Shown in pieces: positions 42,547 to 63,759 of a DNA stretch of 64,000 nucleotides. A program made the translations under genes and the position numbers. Every line of letters starts with the position of its first letter. The stretch's first letter is position 1. Source of the stretch: Sedimentibacter sp. SX930 (GTDB taxonomy: Bacteria > Bacillota > Bacilli > Lactobacillales > Aerococcaceae). The stretch covers positions 62,001-126,000 of the forward strand of contig MUZD01000010.1 of NCBI GenBank assembly GCA_002155105.1, read 5' to 3'. The notes beneath the pieces are model-generated. The model did no database searches. It was not told the origin of the DNA and saw nothing but the letters and a program-made list of their open reading frames with translations.

Positions 42547-42573
42547 TGAAACAAACTGTTTCATTTCTGAAAC
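42547..42573 (+). promoter_or_regulatory. Shared RpiR-type operator candidate (copy at GH4)
   Basis: A 27-bp element beginning TGAAACAAA and ending TTTCTGAAAC, with an internal GAAAC-N5-GTTTC inverted repeat. It equals the element at 57877-57903 in 24 of 27 positions, which lies between the RpiR gene and its GH1. The rest of the 263-bp gap before GH4 has no other clear feature. Confidence 0.65.
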
Positions 42574-42806
42574 GAAAATCATAATAGAGAACCTGCAATC
42601 AAAATGTAAGGGGATTCTCCGGATGCAACGGGGGTGTGCTATCATAAACTCAGGAAGCGAAAAGCCCTTTCACGGACGGCTGGAATGAAAGCCTTTCCTG
42701 TACGGGTGTTGGTGGACATTAGCTGTTTTTGCTAGGGAATGCATTGTCACGACAGAATTTTTGAGCCGGAAAGCAAAAAAGTAACCAAAAATAGGAGGAA
42801 GCATGC

Positions 42807-44204
42807 ATGTCGAAAGAAGCTTTGAAGATTGTAACGATTGGTGGAGGTTCCAGTTATACACCGGAATTGATTGAAGGATACATCTTAAGAAAAGATGAAT
42901 TGCCTATCAAAGAAATTTGGTTGGTGGATATCGAAGCAGGTAAGGAAAAACTGGAGATCGTCGGCGCAATGGCGAAACGCCAAGTCGAGGCGGCTGGTTT
43001 GGACTGGGAAGTCCACTTAACATTGGATCGTTTCAATGCTTTGAAAGATGCGGATTTCGTAACGACGCAATTCCGTGTAGGTTTACTGAACGCTCGTATC
43101 AAAGATGAGCGCATTCCATTGTCCCATGGTGTTTTGGGTCAAGAAACCAATGGTGCAGGCGGGATGTTCAAAGCTTTCCGTACGATTCCAATCATCGGCC
43201 AAATCATTGCGGATATGAAAGTGCAATGTCCGGATGCATGGTTGATCAACTTTACGAACCCTGCAGGTATGGTGACTGAAGCAGCCATCAAACATTTCGG
43301 TTGGAAGAAAACAATCGGTCTATGCAATGTTCCGATCGGACACCGCAAAGTCGCAGCAGAAAAATTAGCGATTCCTGAAGATGAATTATTATTCAAATTT
43401 GCCGGGATCAACCACTTCCACTGGCACCGTGTCTGGGATGACAAGGGCGCTGAACGCACAGATGAAGTGATCGATATGGTTTACGGACCGCAAAAAACAG
43501 AAGACGAAAACCATCTGAAGAACATCCACAGTGCGCAATTCCACTACGAGCAATTGAAGGACCTGGGATTGCTTCCATGCGGATACCACCGTTATTACTA
43601 TATCGAAGATGAAATGTTGAAGCATTCCATCGAAGAGTTCGAAAAAGGCGAAACGCGTGCGCAAGTCGTCAAGGCAACAGAAACGCGCTTGTTCGAACTT
43701 TACAAAGATCCAGCTTTGAACTACAAGCCGGAAGAATTATCGCAACGCGGCGGTACGCACTACAGCGACGCAGCCTGCGAAGTGATCGCGTCGATCCAAA
43801 ACGACAAACGCACGGACATGGTCGTATCGACAGCAAACAACGGCACAATCCAAGATATGCCATACGACTGTGTCGTAGAAGTTTCCGCCTTGATCACAGC
43901 CCATGGCGCAGAACCGTACAACTGGGGCGAAATGCCTTCAGCGGCCCGTGGCTTATTGCAAGGCATGAAAGCGATGGAAGAAACAGTCATCCGCGCAGCC
44001 ATCACAGGCAGCTATGGTGCGGCATTGCAAGCATTCACAATCAACCCGCTTGTGCCAGGCGGAACAACAGCTAAGACTTTGTTGGATGAATTATTGTATG
44101 CACACAAAGAGCACTTGCCACAATTTGCAGAAAAAATCGCTGAAATCGAAGCAAACCAACCGGAAACAGTTGCTTACGTCGATGAATTGATGAAATCAAA
44201 CTAA
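42807..44204 (+). CDS. 6-phospho-beta-glucosidase, GH4
   Basis: NAD+- and Mn2+-dependent phospho-glycosidase of 465 residues. It works by an oxidation-elimination mechanism unrelated to GH1. Motifs are the dinucleotide loop IVTIGGGSSYTPELIEG, NFTNPAGMVTEA, GLCNVPIG with the metal-binding Cys, and AGINHFHWH with the metal His. Similarity is to LicH/CelF-type 6-phospho-beta-glucosidases rather than alpha-glucosidases. The ribosome site is ATAGGAGGAAGC. No PTS gene is adjacent; a shared RpiR-type element links it to the locus at 57-63 kb. Confidence 0.93.
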   Translation: MSKEALKIVTIGGGSSYTPELIEGYILRKDELPIKEIWLVDIEAGKEKLEIVGAMAKRQVEAAGLDWEVHLTLDRFNALKDADFVTTQFRVGLLNARIKDERIPLSHGVLGQETNGAGGMFKAFRTIPIIGQIIADMKVQCPDAWLINFTNPAGMVTEAAIKHFGWKKTIGLCNVPIGHRKVAAEKLAIPEDELLFKFAGINHFHWHRVWDDKGAERTDEVIDMVYGPQKTEDENHLKNIHSAQFHYEQLKDLGLLPCGYHRYYYIEDEMLKHSIEEFEKGETRAQVVKATETRLFELYKDPALNYKPEELSQRGGTHYSDAACEVIASIQNDKRTDMVVSTANNGTIQDMPYDCVVEVSALITAHGAEPYNWGEMPSAARGLLQGMKAMEETVIRAAITGSYGAALQAFTINPLVPGGTTAKTLLDELLYAHKEHLPQFAEKIAEIEANQPETVAYVDELMKSN

Positions 44205-56931: not shown

Positions 56932-56932
56932 T

Positions 56933-56956
56933 GAAACAGCCCGTTTTTCTGAAATA
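56933..56956 (+). promoter_or_regulatory. Degenerate RpiR-like element
   Basis: TGAAACAG....GTTTTTCTGAAAT resembles the elements at 42547 and 57877, but with a shorter centre. It lies upstream of the RpiR gene, before a terminator, so it may be a relic or an upstream site. Confidence 0.35.
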
Positions 56957-57107: not shown

Positions 57108-57863
57108 GTGTTCAACCAAGAAAATGTGAAGTTATTGACGAATACAGAGTTAAAGGTATACGAATACATCGTGCAGCATGCCCAAAAAGTCATCCGTATG
57201 AGTGTTCGTGAGATCGCATCCGAGACCCATGTATCGCCGGCGACGGTTACGCGGACAATCAGCAAGTTGGGTTTCGAAAATATCTGGGAGTGCAAATTGC
57301 ATCTGAAGGAAATGGATAACCGCAAACACAATAAGAAGGTGTTTGAAACTTCCGAAATCGTTGAAGAGTTTTTCAGTCGTTCCATGCAATCCGAATATGA
57401 GGAAAAAATCCACTCCGCAGTTGAGTTGATAGCAAATTCCGACGTTGCCGTTTTCTTTGGCATCGGCACGTCTGGATTGGTTGCTGCCTATGCATCCCGA
57501 CAGTTTTCAAACCTGGGTCAAAGCACCTTCCATATCCAAGACCCCTATTATCCATTCCATTTGATCAGCAGACAATATACAAACACAGTAGCGATTGTTT
57601 GTTCCGTTTCCGGAGAAACAGAAATCATGTTAAGAAAAGTGGGCGATTTGAAGAGTCTGGGGAGCAAAATCATCAGCATCACAAATTCCTCCACCAATTC
57701 ATTGGCAAGGCAATCAGATATCAACCTCGCTTATCACCTGACTCCTGAATATGTCGATGAAGAGGTAAACGTGACTTCCCAATTACCGGCCGTGTTTTTG
57801 ATTGAAACACTGGCAAGACGCAATTATAACTACATGCAACAAATGCATAACAACAAGCTATAG
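57108..57863 (+). CDS. RpiR/MurR-family regulator of PTS locus 3
   Basis: Regulator of 251 residues. GTG at 57108 follows AAAGGGGTTTTTAT. The N-terminal RpiR helix-turn-helix is MSVREIASETHVSPATVTRTISKLGFENI. A SIS sugar-phosphate domain follows at about 95-230 (VAVFFGIGTSGLVAAYASRQF, AIVCSVSGETEIML, IISITNSSTNSLARQSDI). It should sense a phosphorylated sugar. It precedes GH1-IIC-IIB-IIA-GH1, and the 27-bp element in between is a good target site. Confidence 0.92.
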   Translation: MFNQENVKLLTNTELKVYEYIVQHAQKVIRMSVREIASETHVSPATVTRTISKLGFENIWECKLHLKEMDNRKHNKKVFETSEIVEEFFSRSMQSEYEEKIHSAVELIANSDVAVFFGIGTSGLVAAYASRQFSNLGQSTFHIQDPYYPFHLISRQYTNTVAIVCSVSGETEIMLRKVGDLKSLGSKIISITNSSTNSLARQSDINLAYHLTPEYVDEEVNVTSQLPAVFLIETLARRNYNYMQQMHNNKL

Positions 57864-57876
57864 CAGAGCCCTGAAT

Positions 57877-57903
57877 TGAAACAAATCGTTTCTTTTCTGA
57901 AAC
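57877..57903 (+). promoter_or_regulatory. RpiR-type operator candidate before GH1 (locus 3)
   Basis: A 27-bp element starting TGAAACAAA and ending TTTCTGAAAC, 45 bp upstream of the -35 box. 24 of 27 bases are shared with 42547-42573 before the GH4 gene. Confidence 0.65.
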
Positions 57904-57947
57904 AGCATTCCAAAAGCTGATTATTGTTCCTTTAATGCATGTAACTG

Positions 57948-57975
57948 TTTACATTTCGTTCACAAACTCTATAAT
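57948..57975 (+). promoter_or_regulatory. Promoter of PTS locus 3
   Basis: TTTACA (57948-57953), a 16-bp spacer and TATAAT (57970-57975). A leader of about 140 nt follows. Confidence 0.65.
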
Positions 57976-58059
57976 AAACTTATATTGAAAAACAGAAAGC
58001 GCATTCGCAATCTGGAAACGAATCTTTTTGAAAAGAAGAGAGTTCGCTTTTGAAAATCA

Positions 58060-58073
58060 TGTAACCGCTTTAA
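58060..58073. promoter_or_regulatory. cre site in the leader of PTS locus 3
   Basis: TGTAACCGCTTTAA matches the cre consensus in 13 of 14 positions. About 85 bp downstream of the -10 it would act as a CcpA road-block. Confidence 0.65.
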
Positions 58074-58104: not shown

Positions 58105-59520
<1,416 letters not shown>

Positions 59521-59716
59521 AGGTAGAAAGCAAGAATAGTTTTTCGCACCATCCATTGTTGATAAAGAACAGCGGCAAGTGAATGCGGAAAACGAAGGCC
59601 CATTGTTCTGAGACTGACTGGCAGAATCCGGACAAGCAATCATATCAATTTATTTTACTGTTTTCGAAGACGGCACGCTGTCTTCACAAGTGTTCCTAAC
59701 AGAGGAGGATTTTATT

Positions 59717-61027
59717 ATGGATAAATTCTTAGAATTTTTAGAAGGAAAATTGGGTCCTATAGCGTATAAATTAAATGCAAACCGTTACTTATCGGCAATT
59801 AAAGAAGGTTTCTTCGGAGCGATGTCACTATTGATCATCGGTTCCATGTTCCTATTAGTTGCTAACTTACCAATTCCAGGATACGCTGATTTCATGGCAG
59901 GTGTTTTCGGCGCTGACTGGACACAATTCTTCATGGTTCCATTCGATATGACCATGAACATCATGACAATCTTCGTTATGATCGGGATGGCGAAAGATTT
60001 ATGCAAAACCTATGGAATTGATGATGTAGCAGGGATTATTTATGCGCTTGTTGGATTCCTTATTTTGACACCGTCAATCTTAAGCACCGATAATGCAGCA
60101 GGAATCCCAATGGGAAACTTGAGTGCTAGCGGATTGTTCTTAGGTATGATGAGTACTGTTTTGGCAGTTGAAATTGTACGTTTCGTTTTGGGCAGAGGAT
60201 GGACAATCAAAATGCCAGATTCGGTTCCTGCAAACGTTGCGAGATCATTTGATGCCTTAATACCTGGCTTGTTTGTTATCTTGGTATTCGATATTTTGAA
60301 ATTGATTTTTGCTATGACATCATTTGAAACAGCCCAAGCATTCATTTTTGAAATTATTCAAGCACCATTGACTAGTATTGGTGCCACGTTACCAGCGACA
60401 ATCCTTGTAGTCATCTTAGAAACACTATTGTTCTCATTCGGCTTGCATGGTCCAAATATCTTGGGTGCGGTAATGAACCCAATTTGGTTGACACTGACTG
60501 CTGAAAATGCTAGTGCATATGCAGCAGGAGAAGTATTACCAAACATCGTCAATGCTCAATTCTATGCAAATTTCATTAAAATTGGTGGTGCTGGAGCAAC
60601 TTTTGGACTAGCGTTATTGTGTTTATTCGTTGCAAAATCGAGCCAATTCAAAACGTTGGGTAAGTTAGCAATCGGACCCGCAATATTTAACATCAACGAA
60701 CCGTTGATCTTTGGTATGCCAATCGTATTGAATCCTATCTTGATGATTCCATTCATTTTGTCACCGGTAGTCATGACTACCTTAACGTATATCTTGATGA
60801 ACATTGGCTTGATTCCACTTACAAATGGGGTAAACATACCTTGGACTACACCACCAATTATTTCTGGATTCCTTATAAGCGGCTGGCAAGGTGCTGTATG
60901 GCAAGTAATCGAAATGGGCTTAAGTGCTTTAATCTTCTACCCATTCTTCAAATTGGAAGATAACAAAGCTTACCAAATCGAAATGGGTCAAATCGAAGCT
61001 GATGAATCAGGCAACGTAGTAGCATAA
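59717..61027 (+). CDS. celB: PTS cellobiose/lichenan-type IIC permease (locus 3)
   Basis: Membrane permease of 436 residues with about ten helices. Signatures are LFSFGLHGPNILGAVMNPIW and FNINEPLIFGMPIVLNP. ATG at 59717 follows AGAGGAGGATTTTATT; nine open codons upstream are ignored. The only permease here with its own IIB and IIA downstream. The gene is visibly AT-richer than its neighbours: two sampled 60-base blocks (60301, 60601) have 17 and 23 G+C, against 33 in a block at 61921. Confidence 0.95.
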   Translation: MDKFLEFLEGKLGPIAYKLNANRYLSAIKEGFFGAMSLLIIGSMFLLVANLPIPGYADFMAGVFGADWTQFFMVPFDMTMNIMTIFVMIGMAKDLCKTYGIDDVAGIIYALVGFLILTPSILSTDNAAGIPMGNLSASGLFLGMMSTVLAVEIVRFVLGRGWTIKMPDSVPANVARSFDALIPGLFVILVFDILKLIFAMTSFETAQAFIFEIIQAPLTSIGATLPATILVVILETLLFSFGLHGPNILGAVMNPIWLTLTAENASAYAAGEVLPNIVNAQFYANFIKIGGAGATFGLALLCLFVAKSSQFKTLGKLAIGPAIFNINEPLIFGMPIVLNPILMIPFILSPVVMTTLTYILMNIGLIPLTNGVNIPWTTPPIISGFLISGWQGAVWQVIEMGLSALIFYPFFKLEDNKAYQIEMGQIEADESGNVVA

Positions 61028-61093
61028 TCATATAACGTCAAAATGAGCCCCTTTCATAGGGGCTCAAATTAGATATAAGGATGGGGAAATATT

Positions 61094-61414
61094 ATGGCAG
61101 ACAAAACAATCATGTTAGTATGTGCAGCTGGGATGAGCACCAGCTTACTTGTATCAAAAATGCAAAAAGCGGCGGTGGCACAAGGATTGGACGCTGATAT
61201 TTTCGCAGTATCCGCTTCAGAAGCAGACGCACATTTGGCTAAGCAAAAAATCGACGTCCTGATGTTGGGACCTCAAGTCAAATACATGAAGAAACAATTC
61301 GAAGATAAAGTTGCCGGCACTGACACAAAAATGGATGTCATCAACATGCAGGACTACGGCATGATGAACGGCGAAAAAGTATTGAAAACAGCTCTTACTT
61401 TAATGGGCGAATAA
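61094..61414 (+). CDS. celA: PTS cellobiose-type IIB (first copy)
   Basis: Cytoplasmic phosphocarrier of 106 residues. The P-loop-like active site MLVCAAGMSTSLLV carries the phosphorylated Cys10. It accepts phosphate from IIA and transfers it to the sugar in IIC. It is 66 bp after IIC and 25 bp before IIA. A copy differing at two residues is at 63439-63759. Confidence 0.96.
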   Translation: MADKTIMLVCAAGMSTSLLVSKMQKAAVAQGLDADIFAVSASEADAHLAKQKIDVLMLGPQVKYMKKQFEDKVAGTDTKMDVINMQDYGMMNGEKVLKTALTLMGE

Positions 61415-61439: not shown

Positions 61440-61757
61440 ATGGCAGAACCAAAAAACCTGGATGTCATCATGCAGTTGATCATGCATGGGGGCGATGCAA
61501 AAGGAAATGCGATTGAAGCGATCGAAGCGGCAAAAGCAGGAGACTTTGCATTAGCAAACGAAAAAATCAGTGAATCGGAAAAAGCATTGGTGGAAGCCCA
61601 CCATGCGCAGACCGGTCTGTTGACACAAGAAGCATCAGGCGATGCAGTGGAATTGTCCTTATTGATGGTCCACGGACAAGATCACTTGATGACGTCCATC
61701 GCATTCAAAGACTTGGCGAAAGAAATCGTCGAAATCTATGAGAAAATCGCAAAATAG
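61440..61757 (+). CDS. celC: PTS lactose/cellobiose-type IIA (first copy)
   Basis: Trimeric helical phosphocarrier of 105 residues. The phosphorylation His is in LVEAHHAQTGLLTQEA; the C-terminal helix contains MVHGQDHLMTSIAFKDLA. It passes phosphate from HPr to IIB. The ribosome site is GAAGGAGTAACTCTA. A second copy starts at 63785 and is nearly identical over the visible part. Confidence 0.96.
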   Translation: MAEPKNLDVIMQLIMHGGDAKGNAIEAIEAAKAGDFALANEKISESEKALVEAHHAQTGLLTQEASGDAVELSLLMVHGQDHLMTSIAFKDLAKEIVEIYEKIAK

Positions 61758-61778
61758 TCACTGATCACCAAACATAGA

Positions 61779-61817
61779 TGGACCATAAATCGCTCATATG
61801 ATTTATGGTCCATTTTG
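61779..61817 (+). terminator. Hairpin between IIA and the second GH1
   Basis: TGGACCATAAAT pairs with ATTTATGGTCCA, followed by a short T-run. It may attenuate rather than stop transcription into the following GH1 gene. Confidence 0.7.
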
Positions 61818-63397: not shown

Positions 63398-63438
63398 AAT
63401 TGCATATTAAATTATATTTATGGATGGAGAGAATGAAT

Positions 63439-63759
63439 ATGGCAGATAAAACAATCATGTTAGTATGTGCAGCTGGAATGAGCACCAGCTTACTTGTGTC
63501 AAAAATGCAAAAAGCGGCGGTGGCACAAGGATTGGACGCTGATATTTTCGCAGTATCCGCTTCAGAAGCAGATGCGCACTTGGCTAAGAAAAAAATCGAC
63601 GTCCTGATGTTGGGACCTCAAGTTAAATACATGAAAAAACAATTCGAAGATAAAGTTGCCGGCACTGACACAAAAATGGATGTCATCAACATGCAGGACT
63701 ACGGCATGATGAACGGCGAAAAAGTATTGAAAACAGCTCTTACTTTGCTGGGCGAATAA
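63439..63759 (+). CDS. celA: PTS cellobiose-type IIB (second copy)
   Basis: 106 residues, almost identical to the protein at 61094-61414: Lys replaces Gln near residue 51 and Leu replaces Met near the end. The nucleotide sequence is also almost the same, with scattered silent changes. ATG at 63439 is 9 bp after GGAGAG; two upstream in-frame ATGs are less suitable. The active-site Cys is kept. It has its own promoter with cre-like sites. Confidence 0.94.
   Translation: MADKTIMLVCAAGMSTSLLVSKMQKAAVAQGLDADIFAVSASEADAHLAKKKIDVLMLGPQVKYMKKQFEDKVAGTDTKMDVINMQDYGMMNGEKVLKTALTLLGE

Follow-up and report, generated by a model that had tools for sequence, protein, structure and literature searches.

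We consider it likely that an RpiR-family regulator encoded in the 64,000-nt stretch of DNA analysed here (the window) activates both a GH1-PTS operon and a lone GH4 gene through a three-unit operator array, with CcpA control superimposed. In the proposed mechanism, the RpiR protein encoded at 57108-57863 would bind the array before GH4 and that before GH1, each of which occupies roughly -105 to -49, immediately before the -35 region. Once the PTS has brought in a beta-glucoside in phosphorylated form, this sugar phosphate would switch RpiR on, and the regulator would recruit RNA polymerase both to the promoter of the GH1-PTS operon and to that of GH4, an extended -10 promoter with no -35 box. 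The PTS and two mechanistically different 6-phospho-beta-glucosidases, GH1 and GH4, would form one regulon, and CcpA would repress at cre sites on top of RpiR control.

The genes, promoter boxes, array units and cre-like sequences whose positions are given here lie on the forward strand. The regulator, the putative binder of both arrays, carries an HTH_6 domain (PF01418, residues 8-69, 43 bits against a cut-off of 28) and a SIS phosphosugar-binding domain (PF01380, residues 108-228, 56 bits against a cut-off of 25), and judged by both domains it is a member of the MurR/RpiR family. In the same locus are a GH1 gene for a probable 6-phospho-beta-glucosidase (58120-59520) and the PTS genes for EIIC of the lactose/cellobiose family (59690-61027), EIIB (61094-61414) and EIIA (61440-61757), followed by a terminator-like hairpin (61776-61815). 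A second GH1-EIIB set lies beyond the first PTS genes, downstream of this hairpin, and the EIIB coding region is duplicated (61086-61385 and 63431-63730, 2345 bp apart, 96% identity); in the relative G068 (L232) the second GH1-EIIB set is also followed by EIIA. The GH4 gene (42807-44204) has the Pfam N- and C-terminal GH4 domains (PF02056, PF11975), and the closest solved relatives of its product, 5c3m and 1s6y, are both named 6-phospho-beta-glucosidase. Its translation contains LCNVPIGH, in which CNVP (residues 173-176) is what we take to be the active-site signature of the GH4 6-phospho-beta-glucosidase subgroup, and the enzyme is a probable NAD/metal-dependent 6-phospho-beta-glucosidase. 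GH4 evolves unusually slowly (Ks 0.13-0.32 versus 0.23-1.06 for rpiR in the same genome pairs; protein identity 98-100% in most species); either gene exchange or a very high expression level might be the cause.

The first-pass annotation had stated that a 27-bp element before GH4 (42547-42573, TGAAACAAACTGTTTCATTTCTGAAAC) matches one between rpiR and GH1 (57877-57903, TGAAACAAATCGTTTCTTTTCTGAAAC) in 24 of 27 positions and that both contain GAAAC-N5-GTTTC, and direct comparison confirmed this, the two differing at the remaining three positions. Its description of the element as an inverted repeat was too narrow: to judge from the sequence, the 27 bp make up the distal portion of a larger structure, a three-unit array of about 57 bp with units at 0, +21 and +41. 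In this pattern, TGAAACA-N4-GTTTC stands at 0; the GAAAC unit at +21 has CCA or CAT as its end, and the GAAAC unit at +41 is weaker. Before GH4, the palindromic unit 1 (TGAAACAAACTGTTTC, 42547-42562) forms the start of the 27-bp element and is conserved in all 11 Trichococcus GH4 promoters; unit 2 (TGAAACGAAAATCAT, 42568-42582) follows at +21, and the degenerate unit 3 (AGAACCTGCAATCAAA, 42588-42603) at +41 has one mismatch to the three-unit pattern in the window's genome. The array before GH1 is composed of unit 1 (TGAAACAAATCGTTTC, 57877-57892), unit 2 at +21 (TGAAACAGCATTCCA, 57898-57912) and a likewise degenerate unit 3 at +41 (TGATTATTGTTCCTTT, 57918-57933). The degenerate unit is the third in Trichococcus and the first in G052, a genome of another genus of the same family.

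The window's genome groups with Trichococcus, named contigs of which carry RpiR orthologs 88-96% identical. The conservation check suggested earlier, by which absence of the element from orthologous GH4 genes would count against the proposal, found it in oriented alignments upstream of GH4 in 11 of 11 Trichococcus genomes having a GH4 ortholog; between rpiR and GH1 it is present in 12 of 12 having an RpiR ortholog. None of the 23 Trichococcus copies deviates in the outer GAAAC half-sites, which are 21 bp apart, and two species show decay of the GTTTC arm in the middle. Past offset 27, identity between the GH4 and GH1 promoters within a genome is near background, for which reason we rejected the idea that one promoter was recently copied onto the other.

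The position of the array relative to the core promoter is strikingly constant. At the GH1 promoter, the -35 box TTTACA (57948-57953) and the -10 box TATAAT (57970-57975) were recognized, the latter beginning 93 bp from the array start. The candidate -10 box of GH4, TATCAT (42640-42645; TAAAAT in most relatives), follows TG and also begins 93 bp from the array start, and no -35 consensus was found at this candidate promoter. The same 93 bp separate array start and -10 start in 11/11 GH4 and 12/12 GH1 promoters of Trichococcus, before GH4 of G052, where the extended -10 is similar (TGCTAAAGT), and in two Desemzia genomes, and the distance is 94 bp in Atopococcus and 93-94 bp in Listeriaceae, whose -35 sits at offset 70-71 from the array start. 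The sole misfit to 93-94 bp is an array-like, divergent copy in one Listeriaceae genome (G170), which has no promoter at the usual offset. Of 15 representatives, 11 had their top-scoring leader promoter at offset 93 or 94, where 0.33 would be expected, a comparison that is only a guide because the representatives share ancestry. For GH4, the -10 assignment leans on relatives, since in the window's species two other candidates score higher than the box at offset 93; this box ranks first in the more distant relatives G065 and G052, and a rival candidate at offset 206 has a higher score in several species. The GH4 leader also contains GCATTGTCACGACAGAATTTTTGAGCCGG (42740-42770), which is invariant in 10 of 11 genomes, missing in G065, and includes a rival promoter candidate. 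An RNA element in the leaders was ruled out, as the search of the 64,000-nt window against Rfam gave no match.

The sequence between array and -10 has a mean identity of only 0.33-0.35 across lineages and is near background when the two promoters, GH4 and GH1, are compared within one genome, and the distance from the array to the start codon varies far more, from 129 to 270. The distance from array to core promoter is thus constant while the intervening sequence diverges, as expected of a class I-type site. One stretch in this interval, TCAAAATGTAAGGGGATTC at 42599-42617 between the GH4 array and -10, is near letter-for-letter the same in 11/11 Trichococcus genomes, the most divergent included, and may be a poor cre or the site of another factor. 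At the GH1 promoter, a cre-like sequence (TGTAACTGTTTACA, 57940-57953) overlaps the -35 box and is conserved in 12/12 genomes, a second one in the leader (ATGTAACCGCTTTA, 58059-58072) is near-invariant in 12/12 genomes, and in Listeria a conserved cre-like sequence overlaps the -10. The assignment of these sequences as cre is made solely by resemblance to the known consensus and suggests that CcpA repression could be layered on top at the candidate sites.

The rigid spacing between array and -10 points to an activator and not to a simple repressor. The opposite sign of control, in which RpiR bound to the array would repress both promoters until a phosphosugar releases it, as with the Gram-negative MurR and RpiR, has in its favour that most Gram-negative family members repress (reviewed in PMC4286628) and that the -35 and -10 boxes of the GH1 promoter are both good ones. 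We nevertheless regard it as unlikely. The array does not fit a simple palindromic RpiR repressor operator, i.e., a single inverted repeat overlapping the promoter: it stops 14 bp short of the -35 and leaves the promoter free. A blocking repressor would not need a distance to the -10 that is constant to the base pair in unrelated promoters, a GH4 promoter devoid of a -35 is what is expected of an activated promoter, and ClaR, GlaR and Lmo2795, three characterised Gram-positive RpiR proteins, are all activators. The geometry points to a class I-type activator, and we infer activation of GH1-EIIC-EIIB-EIIA and GH4 from the fixed site upstream of the -35, the GH4 promoter without a -35 and these three activators. 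With somewhat less confidence than in the regulon itself, we lean towards the generalization that some Gram-positive RpiR proteins form a subgroup of class I-type activators whose recognition site is a rigid array of three units between about -105 and -49. As a module, this array would occur on otherwise unrelated promoters, those of GH1 in several genera and of GH4 in two, with a spacing to the -10 kept within one bp despite the turnover of the sequence in between.

The link between array and regulator extends beyond Trichococcus. Desemzia, Atopococcus, Brochothrix and Listeria have RpiR orthologs about 45-50% identical and, at the same locus, the element before GH1 in the full array form with units at 0, +21 and +41. 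When 395 Lactobacillales genomes were scanned for the three-unit pattern blind to genes, matches were obtained in 48, and the array was present in 43 of the 45 genomes with an RpiR ortholog (defined as above 200 bits) versus 5 of the 350 without, three of these five looking like chance; the corresponding Fisher p values (2e-49, and 5e-39 without Trichococcus) are only guides because related genomes are not independent samples. Close relatives of the window's GH1 (59-69% identical) occur in sampled genomes having neither the array nor an RpiR ortholog above 200 bits; therefore the array follows the regulator, not the enzyme, and its interpretation as a feature of the GH1 gene was rejected. The RpiR relatives of Streptococcaceae are only about 28-39% identical, and the three-unit array is absent from the 12 loci checked in this family, which rules out the same array for those loci. 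In four Streptococcaceae loci (L223, L224, L226, L229), GTTTC/GTTCC-N6-7-GAAAC, with different spacing, comes after rpiR relatives lying upstream of an EIIB-like gene, and is perhaps the operator of a related regulator. In four genomes that are probably Listeriaceae (L096, L098, L104, L105), palindromes of the form ATTTCCCGGGAA(A/T) lie just upstream of rpiR; they do not resemble the array.

One of the two genomes with an RpiR ortholog that the scan missed, G052, carries rpiR directly after GH4. Its GH4 is 86% identical to that of the window and has a diverged array upstream (profile E=3e-5), and the pair has a transposase gene on one flank and genes for Mur ligase and D-Ala ligase on the opposite flank. 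The transposase gene, with integrase-core domains (L231, 4459-5784), stands directly after rpiR at the place expected for GH1, which looks like a replacement of the downstream target. Together with the conservation before all Trichococcus GH4 genes, this adjacency supports the proposal of the first-pass annotation that the isolated GH4 gene belongs with the rpiR-GH1-PTS locus, and a split RpiR regulon with the two loci 15 kb apart is well supported.

Co-occurrence alone cannot separate the array from rpiR, because both share one locus in most genomes. It is conceivable that another factor binds the array and that array and rpiR are just co-resident in a mobile sugar locus; a ROK protein would be the candidate, given the ROK genes in the Listeria and Desemzia operons. 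We hold this for quite improbable, and more so than repression by RpiR, as rpiR is the factor common to all settings. No ROK gene was found among the scanned genes of the Trichococcus locus, and no ROK, GH1 or PTS gene among the scanned neighbours of the rpiR-GH4 pair in G052, which nevertheless has a relative of the array.

The two sites of the putative RpiR regulon stand out in the whole genome. The pattern TGAAACN5GTTTCN4CTGAAAC has only two matches in 3.13 Mb, namely the elements at 42547 and 57877; no further match appeared with one or two mismatches, and matches at three mismatches were not commoner than those of a reversed control pattern. A 57-bp profile built on sequence alone, from 22 training sequences of many genera that included both window sites, recovered both sites in the genome with E=5e-11 and 8e-10, the next match having E=0.012. 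Although GAAAC-N5-GTTTC with one mismatch is fairly common in the window, a similarity of the two elements by chance or as remnants of a dispersed repeat without regulatory role is effectively refuted by full sites numbering only two genome-wide and by an array maintained across families with constant spacing.

A weaker copy of the element had also been proposed before rpiR itself, at 56933. Such a sequence exists (56932-56955) with one mismatch to GAAACN5GTTTC, but matches of this quality are near chance in the window (7 against 3.2 expected; at least 7 in 5 of 100 shuffles). It is located after the stop codon of the gene preceding rpiR and before that gene's terminator. We do not count it as a site because it is degraded in most Trichococcus species and the search of the genome with the 57-bp profile did not recover it, its signal being below the profile noise. 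Autoregulation of rpiR through this sequence is therefore unsupported, and we rejected it as an autoregulatory site.

Class I activators such as CRP sit at -61.5 to -92.5. The array resembles their sites in being helically phased upstream of the -35 at a constant distance to the start, and differs from CRP-type sites by its three tandem units, to which RpiR is predicted to bind. The GlvR operon of Bacillus subtilis, a maltose system, comprises a PTS gene and the gene for an alpha-specific GH4 6-phospho-glucosidase. It shares with the Trichococcus set an RpiR regulator combined with GH4 and PTS genes, but is a single operon whereas the Trichococcus set is split; GlvR is cited as an RpiR activator in PMC4286628. 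The literature search returned nothing relevant on RpiR operators built of direct repeats and no mapped operator for Gram-positive RpiR activators. The RpiR-family activators GlaR (YugA) of L. lactis (PMC6528599) and Lmo2795 of Listeria monocytogenes (PMC10667646) have been demonstrated by EMSA and expression to act at sugar operon promoters; the sections of both reports that we draw on describe EMSA binding of promoter fragments and no mapped site, and the sugars differ, being galactose for GlaR and N-acetylmannosamine for Lmo2795. ClaR (YebF) of Lactococcus lactis IL1403 is encoded near 6-phospho-beta-glucosidase and cellobiose-type PTS genes, and on cellobiose its deletion lowered bglS (GH1) 36-fold and celB (EIIC) 8-fold, cellobiose-6-phosphate being the proposed signal (PMC4286628). 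The rpiR gene of the window similarly adjoins GH1 and cellobiose-type PTS genes, and by analogy the Trichococcus regulon would work like that of ClaR. It differs in that GH4 is among the predicted targets and a three-unit operator array is described, as no operator and no GH4 target were reported for ClaR (PMC4286628).

For Trichococcus, Desemzia, Atopococcus, Brochothrix and Listeria, our results provide an operator consensus together with the geometry of the promoters; the predicted targets are a PTS and two phospho-glucosidases, GH1 and GH4. The predictions on geometry are precise enough to be tested at the resolution of single bases and of half a helical turn. That RpiR proteins can activate sugar operons was already known, while the regulon proposed here, its operator and its geometry are newly described.
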